From: Paralichthys olivaceus
Taxonomy: Eukaryota > Chordata > Actinopteri > Pleuronectiformes > Paralichthyidae
Reading direction: 5' to 3'
Assembly (NCBI RefSeq): GCF_024713975.1
Contig: NC_091093.1
Coordinates: 26,974,501 to 27,038,500, forward strand
DNA: 64,000 nt
Below are positions 28,424 through 63,620 of the stretch, piece after piece. The position numbers were made by a program, and so were the translations under genes. Every line of letters begins with the position of its first letter. The first letter of the stretch is position 1. Below the pieces are notes generated by a model. The model did not search any database. It saw nothing but the letters and a program-made list of their open reading frames with translations, and was not told the origin of the DNA.

Positions 28424-29424
<1,001 letters not shown>

Positions 29425-39312: not shown

Positions 39313-42300
39313 ATGAAGATGGACTGGCCCGGGAGCAGCACCGTGAGTCTCCTCTTGTTTACTAGCAGCTGCTGATGTCTGGTTAGCGGCGTTGACTACT
39401 TAACCCGGTTCAGACGCTGAGTTAAAACCCGGGTTTAAGCATTAACCTGCTAACTCGCGGTCAATCTCGACGGTAAATTGCTGAAAACGCGGAACTAACC
39501 TGCGGAGTCGCCCCAGCTGTCAGCTCGTCTCTGGCGGATGTAGGTGTTGCTAACGTGCTCGCTAGTTACCTGTGGTTAACCAGCGTGAACTAACTTACTA
39601 ACTAACAACTGACTTGGGTTAACTCAGTCCTGATTAACTAGCTCACAAGCTAACTCCTCTCGTGTAGAAGCATCGTCCACGTTCTGGGAAGATTCGTCAC
39701 GATGATGAAAACGTTTCCTCCATTAAAGGATTCATTCAAGTTTGAAAGTCTGAGGTTCTCGTGCAGACGTGATAACAGGTTCTTCCTGTTTTTACAGACC
39801 ACTACAACATGTACTTTTACCATAGTGGTAATAAAAGCAATGCAAAACTAACTCTGATTATGTACAAATACTGATATACTACTCATATATATTCAAATAC
39901 ACCGAGTTTATTAGATCCACTGATCTTCCAACGTCGGTTTCAATTTCCTGTTTCACCACATCGTGTTTCCTGTTGAGCTGCAGCAGGAAGACAGACCCAC
40001 TTCACGATGAGGTCTTTAAATTCATCCTTCATCTAAAATCCTCTAGAAATCTTGGATATGAAAGAAGATTAAAGCAGCTTGCAACACAAGAGATGATGTA
40101 TAAAATAATTTAACTTGTAAAATATCACTTGTGAAAATACTTAAATAAAAACTGGGAGATTTAAACAATATTGAATTCAATTATAGAAAATAGTAGGAGT
40201 GTTAAGTCCAGCGTCAGAAGTGTAGTAAGTAAATACAACTTAGGACTTAACTAGTTAAAGTACAAGAACCTCATTATTGTACTAAATTACTCCAGCTTGA
40301 GTAAAAGTACTTAGTTAATTTCCACTCCTGCTGCATGTTTTCATCCAAATCCACGTATCTGTGTGTTTCACAGCCAGGCAGTTTATCTTCTGCCAAATAT
40401 TGTTTTAGATCAACATTTGTGTGGATCATGGCAGCAAGCGTGTGTGACCATCAACTTCAACATCTGGGCGGACTGAAAGAGCAACCAGCTGCTCCGTCAC
40501 AGGATATAAATAAACCGGTGCAGATGTGGTGAAGCTGTTGTTCACGCCACAGGACACAAATCTTTTTCACAATCTAATGAAGTTTGCAGAACCATCAAAC
40601 ACATCATTTCCACCTTGTGGTTTATCACAGTCATGCAGCTCATCATCAGTGTGGGTGAAAAGGATCAGATTCTCTGTCGCTGTGTGTAGTTAACTTTTCT
40701 AAGCAGCATGAACAATATCATGATGTCTTCTCACTGCTTGTTTTGTCTTCTCACTGCTTGTTTTGTCCAACTTGATAGAAGCAGGTTGACCTAACATTTG
40801 AGGCTGGAACCTGACAAAACTACCGTATATGAACTATGACCATTTTATTTGTTTGCTGATGAAAATCAGTCAATATGAGCCTTTCACAAAAATTAGATAA
40901 TAATTCTAGTTTCCATTTTACTTATAAAGGGTTTAATAATGACATCTTAGGGATCATTACCAATTTCTCTCTATTTTTTATCATTATACATTGGCTGATA
41001 TGCCAGTATTTGGAATTTCTTACTTCCTCATATTGGCATCAGCCCCTAAAACCCATCGTCTGTCAAATTACAGATGATCATACATTTGTGTTCTGCCTGT
41101 TCGGTGTGTTTTGCCTGTTCTGTGTTTACGTGTGCACACTGTGACTGAGCCTAATGAGTCATACTACTGTAATCTGCCAGGCTGATGTTTCCACATGAAC
41201 CATTCTGGACCAAACCCGTGTTTTTTCCTTGTGTGTTATTGTGACAGGATCACAGCCAGATGCATGACGGCTGTCACCACGGACATGCAGGTCATTCTCA
41301 CAGCCACGGGCCGAGAGCGGCAGCGTTCGGCAGCATGGCTCATCCCTTTGCGCCGGCTTTTCACGGGCCGTTTGGCAAAAGCGCAGATCAGATGATGGAC
41401 CTCACTCAGCAGCCAAAGAAACGCTCACACATGGACGACAGCAGCAGCTGGGACATCATTAAGGCAACGCAGTAAGTGGTGGATTATGACAAATCTGTCT
41501 TTTCCATTTCATGTCAACATCGCTTGAGAAAATATTACTTATGTATGACATTAAATCACCTAAAGTTCCAGATTGAAAGGATGGACCAAACCACACACGT
41601 TGTTTTTAATGGGTGATCATTAATGATGTTTTAATAATTTTTATATTCATTAGCATCAAAGCCTCTTCCGTTCATGTTTGATTACATCATTACTTAGTGC
41701 TCTATTACATTTAAGTTCGGCAACTGCTTTGTCCAGCATGTTTCTTCTCTTTATAGGTTTGCTGTTGCACCAATAAAACCTTCACATAATATTTTTTTTT
41801 TTCAGGATCAAATATTCCTTTGGATTTTCTGCAGGATGTGTACAAACAATTTGTTTTAATCACACACAGGAAGGTTTGTGACAAACCTTGAATTTTTTTG
41901 CTGTAGTTCCCGAGTTTAAAAACATGTCAACATGTTCATTTTTGGGAGGGAAAAAACTAAACACACATCAAAAGGTGCAAGGCGGTCCGAAGTGATTCAA
42001 CAAAAACAAATAAGAGCCTGCATACTTATGCATAAGTGTTCAGGCTCTTTTCTGTTTTTCTTTTGAGAGTTTTTCCTCAGATGTTTTGTCAGATGAACAT
42101 CAAAAACAAAAAAAAGAGCCTGAACACCTATGCATGAGTCCTCAGAGTGATTTCACAACAGATCCAAGATTCGAGTATGTCAAACCTGTAGCACTGAGGT
42201 AAACACACCTTGTCTCATTGATGAACAAATATTTAATCAGTGGATTTCCCAGGAGTTTTACAACTAAACTGAAGGAACGTAGAGCTCTGTGTTTAATTAG

Positions 42301-45300
42301 CAGTCAGAAGGGGATGATTCATTTTTTTGGCGGGATTGAAAGTTATCTAGAAAGAAAACCCCGCCCAAAGAAATAAAGGCTTCACAAACCACGTGGGATT
42401 GAGTTGAGATTAAAACTTTCTAACTGATCAGTGAGCTGAGATGCAGAAGATCAAAGGTCACTGCTTGTAAGAAAAAGAAAAGAGCCACTCCTTCTTTTTA
42501 TCTCATTATCTGTTAGCTTAGTGGAAACTATGTGCAAATGTATTTCAAATAGACTGAAACTGATCAACTGAACCTGTTTCTCTACTTTCAGGCAGAGTTG
42601 ACAATTTATTATATTGTCACATTGAAAATGTAATATACATTTTGTATTTAATTTACTTGTTGTGTTTAAATATAAATAATTATATAAAGTGCAACTTTAA
42701 ACGTTAGTCTGGATGTTACCTCTGTCAAGGAGGTTGTGTTTTCATCCCTGTTCATTTGTTTGTTTGTCAGCTGGATTATGCAAAAAGAAACTTGGTGGAA
42801 GGATGAGACACGGGCCGAGAAGGAACTCATTAAATTTTAGCTTGGAATCAGACAAAGGGACGGATCCAGGTTTACTTTCTACAACTGTGTGAGATAGAGC
42901 GTTGAGCTCTACTGAGTGACAGTCTACTTATTGGTGTGTTTTGCTTTGTGTGATCCTCTCAGGTTCGGAATCCTGGAGCGCTGTAAAGAGCTGGTGGAGG
43001 CCGGATACGACGTCAGGCAGCCGGACAAAGAGAACGTGACTCTGCTGCACTGGGCAGCCATCAACAACCGCTCCGAGCTGGTCAAGTAAGACATCTTCCC
43101 AAAGAGAGACAAGAGGAACCTGTTGTTTAGATTGAGAAACAGTCCACTGCAGGTTACCACCTCACCCGACATGTCAATCAGTAGCTCAGTTATTTTCCTC
43201 TGGACCTTTCGCACACACTTCACTGGGTTAAGGATACTCGAGACTGCTGCAGGAAGAATTGAGAGCTGTGTTAGCATTTCAGGAGATTATTCACAGGCTC
43301 ATGAAGTTTCACTCTTATCTACAATCATTCTTTGGTTTTTGTTCCTTAATTTCAGGGAAATCATGCAAAATGTTGAAGTATAAACATTATTCTCGGGTAA
43401 ACAAGATATTTTCTGTCCTTAAGTTTATCATGAATTTAATTTAGAATAATTTAAAATAAAGCTAACCATAAATAGCTCGGTGTTGCTGTGGTCTTTTAAA
43501 TATCACATAAAGAAGCCGGTGTTACCTCAGGGTATTTCACGATCAGAAGAATCTGCTGAGTCATCTTGCTTAATTGCAATAATTAAGAGTTTCTCAAAAA
43601 CGTCCAGAGACAACTGTTCTGAAATAGAAAGAAATTCCAACACGAAATGTTCTGAACTGTTCTGACGTTTTCTCACAGGTATTTCATTTCTAATGGGGCG
43701 ATAGTCGACCAGCTCGGAGGAGACCTGAACTCCACTCCTCTTCACTGGGCCATCAGGTGACCGTTTGACCTTGAATGTTTTGGTAGCTATGGTCAGCAGA
43801 TTAAAAACACTGGAATCATGTGTCTAAAGTTGTTTCATTTGTCTTTCTTAATTTTAATTTGTTTTGTTTGGTTAAAAAATTTAATCACACTGATCATGGA
43901 TATTATGATATGATAATGATTCGTGAATGTTCTTCAGGAATTAATAAATAGATTAAAATAGTACATTTCTAAAGGACCTCAGCTTTTATAAATGTAAAAT
44001 AACCTTTTTACAAAGTTACAAAATTCATTTATTTTGAAACCCCCCCCCCCCGAACAGGCAGGGCCACCTCCCCATGGTGATCCAGCTGATGAGATACGGA
44101 GCAGATCCCTCCATCGCTGACGGAGAAGGTTACCGCGCTCTCCACCTCGCCATCCTCTTCCAGCACATGGCTATAGCGGCTTATCTAATGGCTAAAGGAC
44201 AGGTCGGCACCCTCAAGACAGTTTATTGTTTCTTTTCCTTTATTTTCCCGGCTGTTAATCCATCTTTGCCTCTTGATCTGCAGGAAGTCGATGGGCCTGA
44301 CTGCAACGGACAGACGCCACTGATGTTGGCAGCTCAGAAGATTATTGGGTAAGCTCGCTGCTCCTTCACAAATACACTTTAAACCCCTCTAGTGTTAAGT
44401 AATTGTGTAAATGGCTAAATAAGACTTAATACCGACTCTAAATGAGACCATGTCTGTGATTCATTTTTTCAGATGTTCAGATTTTGCTTCTCCTGAGATA
44501 GATTGTTTGATTTCTTCTTGTTCTGCTGTTAATTCCAAAACACGTTGTTCTGTCCCAGGCCTGAACCCACTAACTTCTTAATCAAGAATAATGCGTCTGT
44601 GAGCGCCGTGGACAAAGTGAACAGGAACACTCCGTTGCACTGCGCCGTGCTCGCAGGAAATGTAGACGCTGCCCACATACTGCTGGAGGCTGGGGCCAGT
44701 GTGGACGCAGACAATATCAATGTGAGCTTCACAAAATTTCATACCAGAATTTATAAAAAAATCTTTGTGGTGAATGTTTCAGTGTGTGAGCAAATCTGTT
44801 TCCCAAAGACAGTCGTGGCTCAGACTAACTACAACTTCACTTAGTGCGACGTGGAAACTTTGATCCTGTGCACATAAGGAGACGTCTTGTAGTATTTTTT
44901 GAAATTAAAAATTTAAATATATTACAAAAGTCTGGATTTTTCGGAGAGGGAGTATTATTACTTCTGATTACTTTTTCTTGTTGAAAAAACAACAAATCAC
45001 ATGAAATTATAATTGAAATTTTATGGTTTAAAACAAATCTTCAATTAGCAGCTTGTGGCTAAACAGCACTGAGCTGAGCTTAAAAACGTTATTAATTTTA
45101 TTGATGTCCTTCTTCATGTTTGTGTTATCACTGCGTCTTCTTCAGGGTCACACGCCCATTGACTTGGCGCACCAGGTGCACAGCCCGCTGCTCATTCACA
45201 TGCTCAACCACGTCAAACAGGAAAGGATTCGCTCCAACTCACGCTGCCTGCGGATTGTCAACAGATACAGGGTACACGCACACACGCACACACACACACA

Positions 45301-48300
45301 CACACTCCGATTGTAAACATTTTCCCTTCCTCTAACATCCTCCTGTCTGCACGTATTGCAGGTGATTCTGCAGTTTCTGCTCTGCACGTCCGTGTTCGGG
45401 TGTGTGGGTGCAATAGTTGATATGAACTCAGACTCCTGGTTGCTCAAAGGGATCCTGCTGGTCTGTGTGATAGGTGGGGTCAATCTGTTCTCAAGGTGAG
45501 GAGTTTTAAAACTGAAAGTAATTTACACTGTTTGCATATTTAACACAACTGGTTTATTTAATTTTATAATGAATATATATTTGCGTCTTAACAGGAATTT
45601 CCCGAGTTCATCCTTTCAGTCTCTCCTCCCGGCTGCGTCTCTCATGGCTTCGTTCTTCTGGATGCTCGTCACCTGGTTCCTCTGGTTCCTGCCAGATATC
45701 CTGTATGTGAAGAAAAACATCAGTTAACCAATTAAGTGACCATTATTTGTGTCTCTGCAAATCAGGGTTTGATCCCTGAGACACGTGAGCAGTAAACTCT
45801 GCAGATGCATTCGCTTGATTTTGAATTCCTGTTTTAATATTTTAGCCTTTTGATGAAACAAATGAACAAAGAGTTTCTTAACATTAAACCCCACATGGAC
45901 CGAGCGCCACAGTTCAGGTTCTGTTCACCCTGAATGCCACTGCTCTGCTCTACTACTACCTCCGCACCTGCAGGACCGACCCTGGCTTCGTCAGGGCAAC
46001 CGAGGAGGAGAAGAAAATGGTGGGATGGATGTTAAAAGGATGTCTTACATGTTAATGTCTCTGCCAAGCTGAGCTAAGTTTTTCTTCTGGTGTTGTCAGA
46101 ATGTGTTGGTGTTGGCTGAAGCCGGCTGTCTGGACCCCAGGATACTCTGCACCTCCTGCATGGTGAAGCTCTGAGCACAAACCCTTCACTTTTTTTTTAC
46201 AATACTGTCATTAACACAGCGACACGACAACCCCTTCTGTTCTACGTTGCTTTGTCTGCAGATAAAGAAACCAGTGAGAGCGCAGCATTGCTACAGCTGT
46301 GACGCCTGTGTGGCGAAGCAGGACCACCACTCCGTCTGGACCAACAGCTGCATCGGTGCGAACATCATGACAAAACCTCCACTGAACAATCTGAAGATAT
46401 TTACATTAAAACTCAAATTTTAACCAAACTTCATGGGAATATTACCTGGGAGGGTATTTCCAGATTATTCACCTTTGGAGCTGATTTGTTGTAGGACGTG
46501 GGCTCCGAGGATCGTAAAAACTTAATGGATAATTTAAATTACACACAGCTCACACAGTAACATCACAAAACACTAACTCTTTATATGGTATGTTGTTAAA
46601 ATTCATATTACGAACCAGTGGTGGAACGAATATAGAATATATCGTGTATATATAGGATGGTATGTACAACTTGCGTGAGGTGTAGGTTACATTCCGCCGA
46701 TAAGTTAGATTCATTAACAAACAAAACTTCTAAGTAATTTTCTTTTACATTTACATATCTATTTAACAATGTTTTAAAAACCTGTGGTCATATTAGAATT
46801 GAATGATGGATGGATGGATGGATGGACGGATGGATAGATAGATAGAAAGAGAGATAGAAAGATAGATAGATAGAGAGATAAGTTCAGTAATTCATTGACC
46901 GTCTGTCACTAACCTCTAAGACTTTGTAGTAAGTTGAAGACAACGTGTCACATTCCACACGTCTTCTTCTTTTCCAGGTGCGAGGAACCATCACTACTTC
47001 ATCCTCTTCCTGTTTTCCCTGGTGCTGATGGGAGCCTGGATGTTCTACGGTTCTCTTGTGTGTGAGTGACTCGACGTACAGTGTGATCGAGGCGTCTGAC
47101 CCGGTTTTTGCGTCGACTCTGGAGAGACTCATCCTGCGTGCTGTGTTTGTTATTTCAGACTGGTCCATTCACTGTGTGCTGCATTACGAGGAGCAGGGCC
47201 TGTGGGGCGTGGTCTCTGCCCTGGTCGGCTGCTCTCCCTGGGTGCTCAGCATCTTCCTGCTGGCCTTCTACCACACCTGCTGGTCCAGCCTGATCCTGCT
47301 GCTGCAGCTCTACCAGGTAACTGGCTGTGAAGTGTGTTACAGAGCGTCCGAGGCTCCCAAACTTCTTATGAGTCATCCTCTCTGTCTCAAAAACCCTCCT
47401 CTGAATTACTTGTTTTAATAAGGTGAATTAACTGTTATAACATTTCCTCTCGTGTAAAATAACGAGGTGGGTGTGTGTTCCTCCCCTAATAAGAGGAGGT
47501 GGTTGGTTTGATTGCCAACTACTTTAATCCACATGCTAAAGTTTCCTTTGGCAGAACACTGAACCTGTGAATGCTGTGCTGTCAGTGTGTGAATGTGACG
47601 TATGAGTTGTTTATAAATAGAATTATAGAGGCACTGTTTGAATATGTGTGAATCTTTGAATTTGACTCATCGTGTAGAGAATTTAATATAATAACTTAAT
47701 GTTTCCATTAGAGCATAGCAATGAAATCAGAACTGTAATAAAAAAAAAATTAAACTAAAATGAACAATAATTATAAAAAACTTTTGATATGTTTTATTTC
47801 ATACTAGAAAAATGAGGAACATAAAAATACTAAGAGTCGTCAAAGGATTTGTAACGTTGTTGTGGGAGTTCGTTCCTCATCTTTGCTGCATCGTGAAAGA
47901 AAGTAGCTCCGCCGTGTTGTTTGACTGTGTCACGTCCAGTGAGCCAGTACTGAGTGACGTCAGCGAGCAGATGGGAACATAATCACAGTCTAAAAGATAA
48001 GATGGTGACGGGACATTTTAGTGGACACTGGCAAACAGCGAAGTGATGCTCATGCTGGTGTGATGTGTTCTTTTTCTCTGGCTTTGGTTCTAGCTGCAGA
48101 ATCTTCAACAAGTTGCAGATGATCAGTGTTTTTTAATCAAATGTAAAATAGTATTTTCACTTAATTGGACTCATATTTGCTTGAAACCTTCGACATTGTG
48201 TTTGTTGTTTTTCTCGTAGCTGAGAACTGGCTCCTTATCCCTTTTATAGTCATTATAATATATTTTACTGCATCTGTGGAAGGTTTTGACAAAGTCTTGG

Positions 48301-48819
48301 AGAATTAGGTTCAGGTTGGACGTGGTGAAGAAGCCAAACCTGACGCACGAAGTCTCTGTTACAGTCTAATGACCTGCTGTGTTTACACATGCGTCTCCTC
48401 TGCTCTTGGGGTGATTGATGTTTCTGTTTGTGTGGGAGCAGATTGCCTTTCTTGGACTGACCACAAGCGAGCGGACAACTCTGTCACTTAACCAGATGAA
48501 GCAGCGGCAGCCGGTCTCCCTGAGACAGAATCCATACAAGTGAGTTTCAGTGCAGCGCTGTGACGTACGGATCACAATAAATTCCCGTTTCCTGCGTTCC
48601 GTGAATAAAAGTTCCATATGTGATCTAATCTGTGAACATAATTAATCGGTCCTGAATCTTCTCCTCTTGTCCTCCTGCAGTTTGGGAGTGGTGCGGAACC
48701 TCGCCTCCTTTTTCCAGCTGCGTTGCTGCGGCCTCTTCAAACCGGCCGTGGTCGACTGGACGCAGCAGTTCCTGCCTGGCCGTGAGCAGCACGTGTTCGG
48801 ACAGGCCGACATGGTCTGA
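39313..48819 (+). CDS. zdhhc13: Ankyrin-repeat DHHC-type palmitoyltransferase 13 (active-site motif DHHS)
   Basis: Seventeen exons: 39313-39342, 41248-41471, 42963-43085, 43679-43756, 44058-44202, 44284-44348, 44559-44721, 45146-45271, 45362-45495, 45595-45702, 45905-46019, 46100-46162, 46262-46355, 46978-47061, 47159-47316, 48442-48539, 48681-48819. Phases agree throughout and give 648 residues (human 622). A His-rich N-terminus leads to WDIIKATQ, then ankyrin repeats (about 85-318; [34 protein letters not shown]). Two membrane segments follow (about 320-398), then a third, a DHHC cysteine-rich domain (454-502) and further membrane segments. It ends with [10 protein letters not shown]. The family are Golgi proteins that S-acylate clients such as huntingtin. 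Here the catalytic Cys is Ser482. The start ATG is the first in exon 1. Gene order with csrp3 and e2f8 separates it from zdhhc17. Confidence 0.94.
40724..40763 (+). repeat. 20 bp perfect tandem duplication
   Basis: TGTCTTCTCACTGCTTGTTT occurs twice head to tail in zdhhc13 intron 1. Likely recent slippage or repair. Confidence 0.9.
42012..42147 (+). repeat. 38 nt inverted-repeat hairpin and a nearby inverted partial copy
   Basis: AAGAGCCTG (42012-42020) pairs with CAGGCTCTT (42041-42049) around a perfect 14 bp palindrome ACTTATGCATAAGT (42024-42037). A second block at 42114-42147 (AAGAGCCTGAACACCTATGC and on) matches the reverse complement of the first for its first 26 bases or so. It lies in zdhhc13 intron 2, so it would be transcribed. 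Confidence 0.8.
42716..42910 (+). repeat. Dispersed repeat copy in zdhhc13 intron 2
   Basis: It starts ACCTCTGTCAAGGAGGTTGT, continues TTTGTTTGTTTGTCAGCTGG, AAACTTGGTGGAAGGATGAG and GGGACGGATCCAGG. I recognise this as an abundant teleost interspersed repeat. A short related start (ACCTCCACCAAGGAAGTTAT) is at 1003-1022. Confidence 0.55.
46262..46355 (+). other. zdhhc13: zdhhc13 exon 13: cysteine-rich domain with DHHS
   Basis: The exon reads [20 protein letters not shown], then DHHS, then VWTNSCIG. Together with CTSC at the end of exon 12, the zinc-ligand Cys/His pattern is complete. Only the catalytic Cys position is changed: codon TCC at 46331-46333 encodes Ser. Human ZDHHC13 has DQHC here. 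The exon has a clean GT donor and AG acceptor. Confidence 0.9.
46802..46876. repeat. GATG/GATA microsatellite in zdhhc13 intron 13
   Basis: A run of GGAT units passing into GATA units with GAAA/GAGA interruptions. Confidence 0.9.
47470..47670 (+). mobile_element. Degenerate tRNA-derived SINE-like copy in zdhhc13 intron 15
   Basis: A B-box-like GGTTTGATTGCC at 47505-47516 is followed by GCAGAACACTGAACC and GTCAGTGTGTGAATGTGA. These match the order of the common teleost SINE body also seen in the minus-strand copy at 33996-34185. Ends are diffuse. Confidence 0.5.
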
Positions 48820-49235
48820 CCTCCCCGCTGCCACTCGCTCAGGGTCAAGGGTCGAACTTCTACAGTGGTTATGGACCAAAAGCACAGATTCTATTTATTT
48901 ATTTTTTTATGTGTGAGCTCTTTGTAAAGAAAGGGAACGATGGCAAAAGCAACATGCAGATAGGGATTCAGTTGCTCTTTGTACAGACTGCTGCTGCCTT
49001 ATACCCGACCAGTGTACGTGACATTTTCATTTGGTTGAACTGAACCTTTAAAGGCCTAAATTGTAATTGAAGTTTTTTTATAAACACGTTGGGTCTATTT
49101 TTTATCATCTGTTAAATGAAAAAAAAAAAAAAACTCTTTGTACATGTAAACGGTTTCTGAATTTTGTAAGAGTTGCATGTGTTTAATAATGAATGACCAC
49201 TATATCACTTCAATAAAGAAAAGCTGTGCCTGTCT
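48820..49235 (+). other. zdhhc13: 3' UTR of zdhhc13
   Basis: AT-rich sequence after TGA 48817-48819, ending soon after AATAAA at 49212-49217. Confidence 0.7.
49212..49217 (+). terminator. Polyadenylation signal AATAAA of zdhhc13
   Basis: A canonical hexamer 393 bases after the stop codon, followed by a GT/CT-rich stretch (gtgcctgtctcttctcatgtg). Confidence 0.75.
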
Positions 49236-50776
49236 CTTCTCATGTGGACTGAAATATGAGGAGGTGAACACATGAGTACGATGTGTTTTGATTTAAATAT
49301 GGGAAGAAATGATTATATATCATTTTCTCCATTAATTGATCAGTTATACTAGTTCAAGGTGACGTCTTAAAATGTGTGGTTAAATATACAAACATTCTTT
49401 CTGCTCATTGACATAACACATTATTTTTCTGTTGATTGTCTCTTGCAGCTATTTTTATGGCAGCCAGTGGAGACATGTTTTCAGTTTGTCTGTTCGTCCC
49501 ATTCTTGTAAACACAATACTTCATGAACGCTTTGTGGGAATTTCTACAAATGTACAAACTTTCATTCGGACCGACAGATAATCTGATGAGATGAAGGTGG
49601 TCGGACGTCAAAGTTTGCTGTTACCTTCAAAAACATGTTTTTGTTCTTGTGAACTCAACATCTCAGGAACGCCTTGAGGACGTTTCTTTAAATTGGGTAC
49701 AAACGTTCACTTGGAGTCAAAGATGAACTGATTAGATTTTGGTGGTCGAACGTTAAGGTTACTGTGAATTCATGTTCGTGTGAATGTGATGTATCAGTGA
49801 CAACTTGAGGGAATTTCAATACATCGGACACAAACACTCACTGAGACTCAAGGACCAAGTGATTTGAATTTAGAAGTCGAAGATCATGGTGACCTCACAA
49901 AACTCTTTTTGCCTTGTGAGCGTGTTATCGTAAGAACGCTGTCAGAGAATCTTTTTAATTTTGACACGTGTGTTTACATCAACTCGCAGATTAATTGATT
50001 CGATTTTAATGATCACAGTTTACAAAACATGATTTTGAAACATATCTCAAATCTGCCTTAAGGGAATTTCATTTAGTTGATAGAGCACCGGTTGGTGGGC
50101 CCATCGGCTCAGTTTGTTCATTGTGTCACGTCCCCCGGTTGAGACATCAAACCATTGTTCACCACAGGAAGTCGTGTTCAATCAGGTTCAATTAGGTCAC
50201 AGTGTCATGGTTGGATGCTTCTCATCCAAACTGCTTCAGACAAAGAATGAAATGAAAATAGTTCTGACTCTCCTGTGTTTTATCAGCTCTAATTTAATAA
50301 GACGAGATAACAGCTCTAATTTTAGTCACACGTGTAATCTGGTGCTGCTCTGCTCGGCTGCTCACGCTTTATTGTTGGGGACAGAAGCTCCACTTTCCCC
50401 TTGTTAATCACTTGTTGCCGTAATTATTCTAATTAAATATTGCACTGAATTATGTATGAATGTAAATGAGGTTATAAATAATTAACTTTGACAAGAGGAG
50501 GCTCTGCCTATTGCCTTTTCACAGCTGGAGGTAACAGTGGTAGAAACTCGTTGACTTATAAACGGGGTCAGGAGTCGTTTTTGCGGTTGTGTTGCAAACA
50601 AAATGATTATATAAAAGCGATAATTTATTCTAAGCATGAGAATTTCAGCTGAGTGAGATATAGAAGATGATGTGACGATATTTATTATTTTTGAAAACAG
50701 TAAGTGAAATGAAATGACGTTTATTATTTAGAAATAACGTCAGTCATCAAGATGCATTTTAAAATATCAAAATGTG
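49236..50776. other. Convergent intergenic region between zdhhc13 and csrp3
   Basis: No gene. It contains the degenerate tandem repeat at 49525-49970. The block at about 50280-50500 is AT-balanced with AATTA/TAATTA clusters and may be a conserved non-coding element. Both flanking genes end toward this region. Confidence 0.6.
49525..49970 (+). repeat. Degenerate ~130-142 bp tandem repeat (three units and a partial fourth)
   Basis: Units start near GAACGC at 49525, 49667, about 49797 and 49934. Each unit has in order a GGGAATTTC-like, a CAAACxTTCA-like, a GATxxxxTGATTxGA-like and a GGTGGTCGAACGTxAA-like segment, then TTTTTGTTC or TTTTTGCCTTGTGA. Identity between units is low, so the array is old. 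Confidence 0.65.
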
Positions 50777-50929: not shown

Positions 50930-54003
<3,074 letters not shown>

Positions 54004-58600: not shown

Positions 58601-60235
58601 GCTTCAGGCTACGCAGCACATTAGCTATATCATAGAGCCGCCGCACTTTGGCTGCAAACACATAAGCAAACAGTGAAATTATTTATGGTCACGCAGAGAC
58701 AGAGAGTAATAAACCCTTTATCCGTCAGACTCTGTGCTCACTCTTGAACTTGTTCTTGTCTTGATCTGCGCCTTGGTCCTCTCCGATCAGGATCTTCGCA
58801 GCCACGTCCAGACTGACCACACGAGGATAAGACACCAGGAAGAGCATGACAAACTTCTGGCTCATCACCCGCAGAGATTTGTCCTTCCGGCTGTTGACAG
58901 AGGCTGGACGGGACAAACAGCGAGTCAGGAAGAGGACATTTTGTATAAATATGAATCACTCTAATAGCAGGTTCTTGTCATTTTCTCTCGGATGTTTAAT
59001 TCTAAGACAAACGTTGTGTGTGTGGTGTATCCACAGTTTCAGAAACATTCGAAGAGGTCTGGAGAGTTTGTGGTGGTTAGAGCTGATAATGGTGTCAGGG
59101 TGATGTAAACATGATCACGTGATCTCCGCAGCAGAGTTAATATGTCACTTCCTGTCTCTGTCTGCTGCACACAGGGGTTTGATGCTGTTGTGAACGCGTC
59201 TTTGCAGAAAACCTGCTGTGTTGTGCATTTGTGAAGGGAAAACTCTGGGAAAACTCCAAATCCAATTTTCCAAACTTTAAGACAATTAAGAAATGATGAA
59301 GACTCTCCAGCTTCTCACCTGCTTTGAACTCTACTCCCGGAAGCTCCACGAAGAAGAGCTCCTTCTGTCCCTGCTCGGTGCTCTCCAACTCCACCACCTC
59401 CTCGTTCTCCTTCTCTTCCAGGAGACGCTGCCGGATCTGCTGCATCTGCTGACCGTACTGCTGCTCCTCGCCCACCCGCTTCAGAATGGCCAGGGTCTGA
59501 GCCAGCTTGGAGCGGCCGTGCCACGTGTAGCGGTTCTTGGCCGAGCGGCTCACCATGTGCAGGCTCTCCAACACGTTCATGATGTCGTAGATGCGCCGGC
59601 GCTCCACATCTGTACAGACAAAAAAGGGGAAAAGACGCTGAAGCAACTCTCAGAACAAAGTAGCACAACATAAGTTACTGGTGAAAAAGAAAGGATGACA
59701 ACGACAGAGAGGACGTACTGAGCTCAGTGGCCACGTCGTCCAGACAGATGTCATTGTTGAGGGCGGGGTTTGGGTAATTTGGGTAGCGGGCGAGGAACTT
59801 GTGACAAAGCAAACCCAAACTCTTTTCTTTTCTGCTGATCATTCTCTCAGACTCTTCTGCGTTTTCAGCGTCCTAAAAAAAATAACACAAACAAGAGCAG
59901 GAAATATATAATTTAACAGCTTGACTCAACAGAGAGAATCTGTCATGTGTTAATGCTCGGAGTTGTTTTAATACCTGTGCAGAGTCGAGACCTTCCCGTC
60001 CCTCAGGGTCCATGCACAGCTCCTTCTCCCGGTTCCTGATGTCAGGACTAGCAGCACTGATGAGCATTTTAAGGTTGGAGGTCGGTGTCCAGGGGTCAAC
60101 AGAACCTCCCTCTCTTCCTTTTTTAGGCGTAGCGAGGGGACCCATGGTTCGCTGGTTCTCCTCCGACACTGCACACGTGTCAAATGATCTCTTTGAGGTA
60201 TTTACAGGAACCTGAGGTTTTATAAGGTCATCACT
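55634..60235 (-). CDS. e2f8: Atypical E2F transcription factor E2F8
   Basis: Twelve coding exons on the minus strand: 60235-59975, 59872-59719, 59609-59319, 58903-58742, 58651-58514, 58396-58187, 58105-58024, 57853-57358, 57211-56945, 56836-56704, 56413-56073, 55801-55634 (TGA). Phases agree. From the first in-frame ATG (60145, good Kozak context ACCATGG) the protein has 870 residues (human 867). The frame is open 30 codons further up to the exon's acceptor, and this part resembles the human N-terminus, so an upstream start exon may be missing. DNA-binding domain 1 is at about 75-143 ([18 protein letters not shown]) and domain 2 at about 213-297 ([21 protein letters not shown]). No dimerisation or Rb-binding region is evident, as known for E2F7/8. 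It represses cell-cycle genes and supports endocycles. The position beside csrp3 favours E2F8 over E2F7. Confidence 0.94.
58514..58903 (-). other. e2f8: e2f8 exons for the second DNA-binding domain
   Basis: Exon 58903-58742 carries [19 protein letters not shown] and the [14 protein letters not shown] helix. Exon 58651-58514 carries [20 protein letters not shown] and the conserved [14 protein letters not shown]. Both are intact, so the two-domain, DP-independent architecture is complete. Confidence 0.9.
59319..59872 (-). other. e2f8: e2f8 exons for the first winged-helix DNA-binding domain
   Basis: Exon 59872-59719 carries [20 protein letters not shown] and the LDDVATEL helix. Exon 59609-59319 carries [16 protein letters not shown] and NRYTWHG. 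The RRxYDI motif that contacts TTTSSCGC DNA is intact. A Glu/Gln-rich linker (about 150-195) follows. Confidence 0.9.
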
Positions 60236-61078
60236 CTGGTCAGGAGAAAGAAATCAAAAACAAGGAATGAATGAGTGAGATATGATTTAAATCATTCCAA
60301 CGTGGTTGTTTTTCCACTTTGATTCCTCTGCACTTTCTGACCTTTAAACACAATTTTAGATTAGATTTCGAAATGTATTGCTGTATTTGACATTTTCCAA
60401 TGTTTTAGCTAGGCATTAATGTAGAGATACATTCAGCTAAAGGTTGGGACATAATTTGATGAATTATTATCTTTAATAATCAAGTGATTCCAGTGTATGA
60501 AATATTCTAATTGTGAAAATAAACATTTTAGTTTTTCAATGACAGTCTAACCTTATAAAGTGCCTTATAATAAGCTGCTATAACTTTACTGAACCCTTTA
60601 AAACTCATACAGAAAGGAATGGAATAGATTTTAATTACTACCTATGACAATTACTCTCTAATAATCTTTTTTCAGTGAATAAAATAATAATAACTTAGTT
60701 TAAATATAAACTTTCATATTAGATGTTATTAAAGTGCTTCACAAAGAGGATAAATAAAAGCATCAATCATGTATAATGGGACTGTACACTAGGGAATAAA
60801 ATAAATATCATTATTAACGAGTAAGACAATTACTATCTAATAATCAATATATTTCCAGTGAATATAATCTCACAACAATAATAATATCTTTACACCAGCT
60901 TATATTGACTTTACAAACTTAAGAACAAACTCATCGATATCACAATAATGATAATAACTTAGTTTACACTAACTAACGTGAGCTCCACTCTACAGACGTT
61001 AAAACAAACTCAACTGGGTTTTGTTTTTTTAATTGAAACGAGACTTTAAGTGAATAAACATGATTATTTCAGTTTTAC
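60236..61078 (-). other. e2f8: First intron of e2f8
   Basis: Lies between the acceptor at 60236-60237 (CCAG then AGTGATG) and a donor-like site (GCG then GTAAAA) at 61077-61078. AT-rich with simple AATAAT stretches. A short coding first exon may hide here, but none could be supported. Confidence 0.5.
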
Positions 61079-61410: not shown

Positions 61411-63620
61411 GTACGGGAAACACCGGCGGATCCGCTTTAAACCTTTTAACGCGTCAATGTCTGGTTTGACGTTAACGTGACGGCGAAAGGGACAAAGTTG
61501 GAGAAGTGCGTCGGTTTGACGGGAATGGTTCGGGTTCGTGTTTGTGGTCGCGGAGCCGGAGACGAGCGCCCGACGTCCGGTTTGGTTCAGAGGGGAAAAC
61601 ACGTTAAATCAGAAGAAAAGAAAGAAAAAAAAAACCGGACGATCCGGTTACTTCACAAACAGACACAGTTTAATTCGACAGATTCAAAAACGCGACGGAG
61701 AATTACGTTAAGCTTACGCAGCCTGTGCGTGAATCCAGCAGTCGGTAACCACAGCGACACCAAAAACCACAGATTCAACCGAGCCAAACTTTCTTTTATT
61801 TCTCGAAAGCCAAGAAACGACGCTCAGATGTTTCCAGACTTACCTTCAATCCACGGAACGATCATGTGCTCAGAAGAATCCTCTCATCGTCTCAGTTTGT
61901 GCGTCACAGTGTCCAGATGTGAGCTTTAAAACACGAGATCTCAAACTTCTGGGTTTTTAGAAATAAGCGCAGAACTCCAACGTGAAACAGTGAAATGTGT
62001 TCGAGGCTCTGAGCTTTCTGTGTTTTCATCCCAGTGTTGGTCAAACTTTTACAGCCGAGGAGAAAAGTTCAGTCCCGTGTGTGTGTGTGTGTGTGTGTGT
62101 CCAGCAGCGTTTGGCCCCGCCCAGTGTATACATGCTGCCAACGTCACCAAACACCAGCCCCTGCACTTCCGCCATGTCCTCCTCCTCCTCCTCCTCCTCC
62201 TCCTCCTCCTCCTCCTCCTCCTCCTCCTCCTCCTCCTCCTCCTCCTCCTCCTCCTCCTCCTCCTCCTCCTCCTCCTCCTCCTCCTCCTCCTCCTCCATGT
62301 TTGTAGTCCAGAGTCAGTGAGGCAATTATATTTACAATAGATTGCGCATGCACTTTGTTAATTGTTTTGAGAAAGGGCTTCACTGTGGCGTGTGTCTAAA
62401 TTAATTTGATTATTTGTCATCATCAGATTTTTATATTATATTTGCTGTGCATTGCAACCAGATGTTTTAATGTATCGAACTTCATTTACTTGCTATGACC
62501 TTTTTTTCAAAGTACTCTAAGGATTTATAGGAAATGTGAAGACGATTCAGGCCTGTTGGATTTTTACAAGCCTCTGTGTCTATTTGCAGTAAAACAGAGT
62601 GAAACATGCTCTGCGCTCTTTTAGCAGCAGTGGAAAACGTGCCTGGAAACAAATATGTGGCTGTTTGGTTTAAAACAGCTGTGAATCGTGCATCACATTC
62701 ACGTGCACAGATGCACAAGGTAACCACACGACAGTAAATAACCGAATTAACATAGTTGTTTGATGGAAGCATTCGCACGGTTTGCAGTAAACTTAGGTTT
62801 ACGTGATTTAATTAACAGGCAAAGATGTTTGGCTGCCCACAGGAAACATTTTAGCAACTGTCCAGGTAATATGATCATTTACCTCACGGTCCCTAAAAGC
62901 CCCTGGTTATCAGAACGTCACTGGACTTTGGTAACTTGATGAATTGGGAATTTGCACCTCTGAAATATCAAACAAGTCAGGTCTTGCATTATTAATTATA
63001 TTTTGTCCTGCTCTGTAGATGGAGCCTGTGTCAAAATCTAGCTTGGTGCCGGGGCCATGTAGACTGAGCTATTATTCCAGTACAGAAAAGGTTTCTGGGT
63101 AAATAATGTAGCTGCCGTGTACAAATAGCCTTTTGTGTTTACCGGTGACAGGGCACATAAATAATTCACAGGGAGCTGTCGGTGTGTGAGGTGGAGGTGC
63201 AGCAGCTAATGTTTACCCTAAACCCCCCTGATCTGCTCAAGCTGCCCACAGTGTCGTAAATTCAGGCCCAGTCTCATTTTTAAATGTCGACTACTGAGTT
63301 GCGGAGAAAGACTGTTTCCAATAGACCACAGCGCATGACTTCATTATTGCACTTGTCATTTAAATAAATCAGACCATGTTCTTGCATGTGAATAAAGTCC
63401 AGTTAAATACGTGGCCCATTCCTGTTTGGGATTACAAGACACCCATGATTTTGAAAAACATGCATCACACCATCTTCTGGTAAAATAAAAACAAGGAAGA
63501 AAAAGAGAAAACGTATTACATGCAGAACTATAACAAGTCAAAATGTCTCTTGTTGCAGGTTTTCCTCAAGAAAACATGCGTAACATATTTTATCCAAGTA
63601 GTCGCTGACGTGTCTCTGTC
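61411..63620. other. Region upstream of e2f8 without a supported gene
   Basis: 61.4-61.6 kb continues the CpG-rich promoter flank. A 150-codon open frame there is not protein-like and is not supported. After the (TCC)n tract, 62860-63330 is of balanced composition with possible conserved character. No exon was recognised. Confidence 0.5.
62177..62296. repeat. (TCC)40 / (GGA)40 trinucleotide tract
   Basis: About 120 bases of pure TCC on the plus strand (GGA on the minus). It opens poly-Ser, poly-Pro, poly-Leu, poly-Glu and poly-Gly frames that are artefacts. It lies about 0.8-0.9 kb upstream of the e2f8 promoter. Confidence 0.97.

Follow-up and report, generated by a model that had tools for sequence, protein, structure and literature searches.

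The window, by which we mean the whole stretch of 64,000 bases that was analysed, carries on its plus strand a gene that reads as zdhhc13, the features of which are collected in Table 1. The gene model joins 16 coding exons into 635 codons and a terminal TGA (a coding model of 1,908 bases) without an internal stop, and AG precedes all 16 exons while GT follows the first 15. The exon ends were picked by eye from the AG/GT borders, the reading frame and the likeness to ZDHHC13 and ZDHHC17, and were joined by a script; the stop-free frame is therefore partly a product of this construction. The open reading frame and consistent splicing described in the initial annotation were supported by this model with its hand-picked exon ends. 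Taken alone, the exon with the DHHS motif has AG and GT at its borders and no stop in the DHHS frame. On a generic matrix the donor sites, 15 in number, scored between -2.0 and 7.2, that of the DHHS exon (0.0) being weak. Donor scans upstream gave no convincing candidate for exon 1 with the start codon. The hexamer GTGCGA opens the intron after the DHHS exon (46356-46361) and also the next exon (46978-46983), forming a six-base repeat at the splice.

Table 1. Features of the zdhhc13 locus, in window positions.
Feature	Position	Strand	Basis and remarks
zdhhc13 gene with 16 located coding exons; first exon, bearing the start codon, not located	41248..48819	+	TGA at 48817-48819; Pfam DHHC and ankyrin families
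Ankyrin-repeat domain exons	42963..45271	+	Gene model, Pfam, ZDHHC17 chain alignment; equivalents of E89, N100, D122 and W130 kept, that of Y67 is Phe
DPG motif codons	45978..45986	+	Gene model; motif named in PMC8059564
Exon with the first two zinc-ligand cysteines (CTSC), preceding the DHHS exon	46100..46162	+	Gene model
DHHS exon, holding the cysteine-rich domain core (HCYSCDAC...DHHS...SCIG)	46262..46355	+	AG before, GT after, frame kept; donor score 0.0
Asp-His-His-Ser codons, Ser469 replacing the acyl-accepting Cys	46322..46333	+	Direct reading, frame of the gene model
Exon after the DHHS exon, in which the next transmembrane helix probably starts	46978..47061	+	Gene model; helix inferred
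TTxE motif codons (Thr-Thr-Ser-Glu)	48460..48471	+	Gene model; motif named in PMC8059564
Asn-Pro-Tyr-Asn of the C-terminal PaCCT region, divided between two exons	48529..48681	+	Gene model; PaCCT named in PMC8059564

The identity of the gene was assessed from its domains, from matches to solved structures and from human sequences. The single model protein matched Pfam DHHC (6e-31) and Ank_2 (2.3e-34), with five ankyrin families matched, and the arrangement of ankyrin repeats ahead of a DHHC-type cysteine-rich domain (CRD) is the architecture of ZDHHC13 (HIP14L). Searches of the PDB matched the ankyrin part to solved ZDHHC17 chains at 5.7e-95 and a 226-residue piece bearing the CRD to eight sequences, including ZDHHC9, ZDHHC5, ZDHHC20 and Erf2 (five of them displayed with an alignment); a 21-residue query had no match in the PDB. 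The identity to human ZDHHC13 was 54.7% over 603 aligned residues and that to human ZDHHC17 was 50.9%, both human sequences being approximate, and the name zdhhc13 is therefore partly provisional. The ankyrin domain was the best-conserved part, with 66.2% and 63.9% identity to the same approximate ZDHHC13 and ZDHHC17 sequences, respectively.

Domains of putative further genes lie downstream on the minus strand. A LIM domain was found at 52380-53153 (Pfam LIM, 23.6 bits against a cut-off of 22.9), together with a second stretch at 20.3 bits, under the cut-off, and E2F_TDP was matched in 59137-59649 (9e-13). No Pfam domain was found in the minus-strand intervals 51692-51973, 52800-53041 and 59873-60253. 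The LIM-domain exon or exons, at 51692-53153, are csrp3-like, the first being closely followed by a low-complexity stretch rich in serine, and the E2F-family exon is probably e2f8. The two may thus be csrp3 and e2f8, the human order being ZDHHC13-CSRP3-E2F8. For a cichlid, zdhhc13 and csrp3 stand next to each other in a list of 24 genes from ten selected regions (PMC13284802). A teleost source for the window is plausible. Elsewhere in the window, an ATCT array of about 1 kb (roughly 250 units, 91% matches) occupies 28427-29423, and 40 perfect TCC units lie at 62177-62296, close to the right end.

Read directly on the plus strand, bases 46322-46333 are GACCACCACTCC. In the frame of the zdhhc13-like gene model these codons, GAC CAC CAC TCC, encode Asp-His-His-Ser, which agrees with the motif first annotated here. 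Residue 469 of the model, encoded by TCC at 46331-46333, is therefore a serine at the position where an active DHHC S-acyltransferase carries its acyl-accepting cysteine. Across all 64,000 bases and both strands, a codon pattern for Asp, His or Gln, His, and then Cys or Ser (the latter as TCT or TCC) had a single match, the DHHS site itself, and no alternative exon with unsplit codons for Asp, His or Gln, His and Cys was found. In six frames of 40000-49300, the peptides HCxxCxxC and D[HQY][HY][CSAR]xW matched in the DHHS exon alone. Both scans are blind to motifs divided by a splice junction; a Cys-bearing alternative exon was ruled out by them for unsplit motif codons.

To place this serine in its domain, 49 CRD residues were compared with four wild-type PDB chains, namely ZDHHC9, ZDHHC5, ZDHHC20 (6bml) and Erf2. 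The ZDHHC20 entry 7khm was excluded, since its motif is DHHS, against DHHC for the same protein in 6bml; its existence shows that a DHHS protein can be produced and structurally solved. Of 22 columns invariant in the four chains, the window copy agreed at 17 and differed at five (Ser to Tyr, Cys to Ser at the DHHS site, Val to Thr, Asn to Ser and Tyr to His). The Asp-His pair was kept, as were the six cysteines and two histidines that serve as zinc ligands and that an active DHHC S-acyltransferase would have. The retention of all zinc ligands, claimed at the outset, was confirmed in the gene model by this alignment. Among the 49 residues there was no further cysteine able to substitute for the missing one. 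The DPG (TDPG), TTxE (TTSE) and PaCCT (NPYN) motifs were all present. An AlphaFold2 model of 114 residues, made without an alignment, had a mean pLDDT of 58.1 and was left out of the argument.

Human ZDHHC13 differs at two of these motifs, reading DQHC (PMC9800311, PMC8059564) and TSxE (PMC7586229). At the DHHC and TTxE motifs the window copy thus reads as nearer to the family consensus than human ZDHHC13, the missing cysteine aside. The initial annotation had held that the family already drifts at this site, and this stood in part: human ZDHHC13 has indeed lost the first histidine of the motif, but it keeps the cysteine, whereas the window copy keeps the histidine and loses the cysteine. The loss in the window copy is a different and more drastic change than the human DQHC.

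Client docking by ZDHHC17 involves residues Y67, E89, N100, D122 and W130 of its ankyrin domain (PMC9800311). Their equivalents were located by eye on the alignment with the ZDHHC17 chain, where every one of the five residue types agrees with the spacing. Identical residues stood at four of the five (E89, N100, D122 and W130), and the equivalent of Y67 was Phe. In ZDHHC17 the change Y67A causes a five-fold loss of affinity for SNAP25, and the equivalent Tyr59 of human ZDHHC13 is phosphorylated (PMC7586229); given the Phe, phosphorylation at this position is impossible in the window copy. ZDHHC13 binds SNAP25 and CSP without acylating either (PMC9800311), and zebrafish zDHHC13 is stated to work through Smad6 with no need of transferase activity (introduction of PMC11167447, citing Chen 2014). 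The proposal that the protein acts as an ankyrin scaffold was strengthened by the four retained docking residues and by the zebrafish statement. By its residues, the window copy has probably kept docking while losing the first chemical step.

That step is the autoacylation of the DHHC cysteine, from which the acyl group is then transferred (PMC7586229). In human ZDHHC13, C456S significantly compromises the palmitoylation of CTNND1 (PMC12646662), and in zDHHC5, C134S eliminates self-labelling with NBD-palmitoyl (PMC11870023). By analogy with C456S, the transferase activity of the window copy may well have been lost, as was initially suggested. How much activity ZDHHC13 has in the first place is disputed. 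Wild-type zDHHC13 was one of four enzymes that remained unlabelled in the NBD-palmitoyl assay (PMC11870023), its autopalmitoylation is reduced relative to that of ZDHHC17 (PMC8059564), ZDHHC17 was the more active for every interacting protein tested (PMC5655499), and the activity of ZDHHC13 was termed still doubtful in 2017 (PMC5359973). Since ZDHHC13 is reportedly the weaker enzyme of the ZDHHC13/17 pair, a loss of its activity may have been tolerable. Acylation clients have nevertheless been reported, namely huntingtin and ClipR-59 (PMC8059564), MT1-MMP (PMC3956893), CTNND1 (PMC12646662) and MC1R (PMC7586229), and in mouse liver lacking ZDHHC13 about 400 palmitoylation sites were lowered (PMC8059564). 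With several mammalian clients and so many liver sites, losing this activity would matter.

In a normal DHHC enzyme the motif cysteine is first acylated from acyl-CoA, and the acyl group then moves on to a cysteine of the client. A serine at the site should make the first step fail, as it does in the engineered serine mutants of relatives. The sequence keeps the residues that bind zinc and the greater part of the ankyrin pocket for zDABM-type clients, and the protein would most likely still be seated in the membrane and dock clients, serving as their scaffold or as a holding partner. It would perhaps compete with or complement zdhhc17, and acyl-CoA may still bind without being passed on. The explanation we favour, with moderate confidence, is a genuine zdhhc13 gene that encodes a natural pseudoenzyme: an ankyrin protein of the membrane, able to dock clients and unable to form the acyl-enzyme. 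The kept catalysis-linked motifs, odd for a long-dead enzyme, make the case harder; they would fit if the loss is recent, if the motifs have structural roles or if some function remains. Also counting against it are the single-base difference between the serine and cysteine codons, the change of Y67 to Phe, and a statement that all 22 LczDHHCs of the croaker have a highly conserved DHHC domain (PMC11167447). In that source, croaker zDHHC13 is singled out as the sole member with two or more beta-hairpins absent from its modelled DHHC domain. A further point against the pseudoenzyme is that yeast Swf1 and Pfa4 stay partly active after Cys-to-Arg changes (PMC8107437, citing Gonzalez Montoro 2015).

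The strongest competing account, which we nonetheless consider unlikely, is that the serine reflects a wrong base call, a misassembly or a loss-of-function allele that is private or rare, in a species that normally has the cysteine and an active enzyme. TCC is one base from TGC, and the other catalytic motifs are kept, as this account would have it. The coding model, however, is free of frameshifts and stops, which informs on indels and not on substitutions, and homopolymers in the 14 bases around the Ser469 codon do not exceed two bases, though CAC CAC directly precedes it. We also judge a substitution error at this very codon to be rarer, a priori, than a natural loss in a weak enzyme.

It is improbable, in our assessment, that the enzyme is active without its cysteine, either through direct attack of the client on bound palmitoyl-CoA in a pocket that zinc, Asp and His hold in order, or with Ser469 carrying the acyl group as an ester. 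The partial activity of the yeast mutants speaks for such chemistry, as does the Asp-His pair, which is intact beside the serine here and altered in mammalian ZDHHC13 (DQHC); in a plant modelling legend, the serine of a modelled DHHS forms a hydrogen bond with the neighbouring His (PMC11722789). Against this stand the compromised human C456S and the unlabelled zDHHC5 C134S described above, and among the literature matches listed, in the parts available, no DHHC enzyme operating through serine is described, the Drosophila legend discussed below giving no activity data. A gene early in decay, its activity lost neutrally and its scaffold role not kept by selection, is the least probable account: differences at five of the 22 otherwise invariant CRD columns and the exon 1 missing after upstream donor scans would suit it, but 635 codons without a stop or frameshift and an ankyrin domain that is the best-conserved part of the protein argue against it.

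More tentatively, ZDHHC13 may have been turned by one codon, in a fish lineage and perhaps in many fishes, into a client-docking and possibly acyl-CoA-holding natural pseudoenzyme. It would then bind clients of the ZDHHC17 type without acylating them and so act as a built-in brake or scaffold, mammals having gone by another route (DQHC, weaker activity). That the serine may be common in fish zdhhc13 is a suspicion. Whether ZDHHC13 is chiefly an enzyme or a docking protein is contested, with SNAP25 and CSP bound but not acylated and activity doubted on the one side and several reported clients on the other. An orthologue in which the nucleophile has been replaced naturally would part the two roles without engineering, and whatever function the gene retains in that animal would run without the canonical acyl-enzyme.

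Among the literature matches listed, a scope outside which most subscription journals fall, the available passages report no natural DHHS ZDHHC13, and those of PMC4571948 contain nothing on the motif. In the legend to a Drosophila figure a 'DHHC/DHHS site' is named (PMC9374236), and natural DHHS may on this ground occur elsewhere in the family. Scans of IMG/VR gave no relatives, either with the model protein (eight stretches matching a pattern) or with CRD alignment A1 (31 stretches), and tblastn against phage records gave no match. Genome contigs scanned with A1 yielded 30 stretches and one relative, a bacterial MAG contig. This contig, binned as Verrucomicrobiaceae (L001, 1501-1641), encodes a typical eukaryote-like DHHC domain that has the cysteine, and it is probably a contaminant, stray eukaryote DNA.

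Compared with known systems, the window copy is probably closest to mammalian ZDHHC13 (HIP14L), with which it shares the ankyrin repeats, the DHHC-type CRD and the identity given above for the approximate human sequence; in human the cysteine stays and the first histidine goes, and in the window copy the reverse is found. The motif of ZDHHC17 (HIP14) has the cysteine. ZDHHC17 resembles the window copy in architecture, in the close match of its ankyrin chains and in four of five docking residues, and differs in its lower full-length identity (again to an approximate sequence). The yeast Swf1 and Pfa4 mutants are, like it, DHHC proteins without the cysteine; they retain partial activity. For the Drosophila DHHC proteins, the legend implies DHHS in at least one, natural or engineered (PMC9374236). 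Parallels at the catalytic site are ZDHHC13 C456S, zDHHC5 C134S and the ZDHHC20 of 7khm, which carry the same Cys-to-Ser change. These are laboratory mutants (7khm by comparison with the DHHC of 6bml), whereas the window copy is genomic sequence as assembled, and it would be the natural form of the serine mutant that is used as a dead control.
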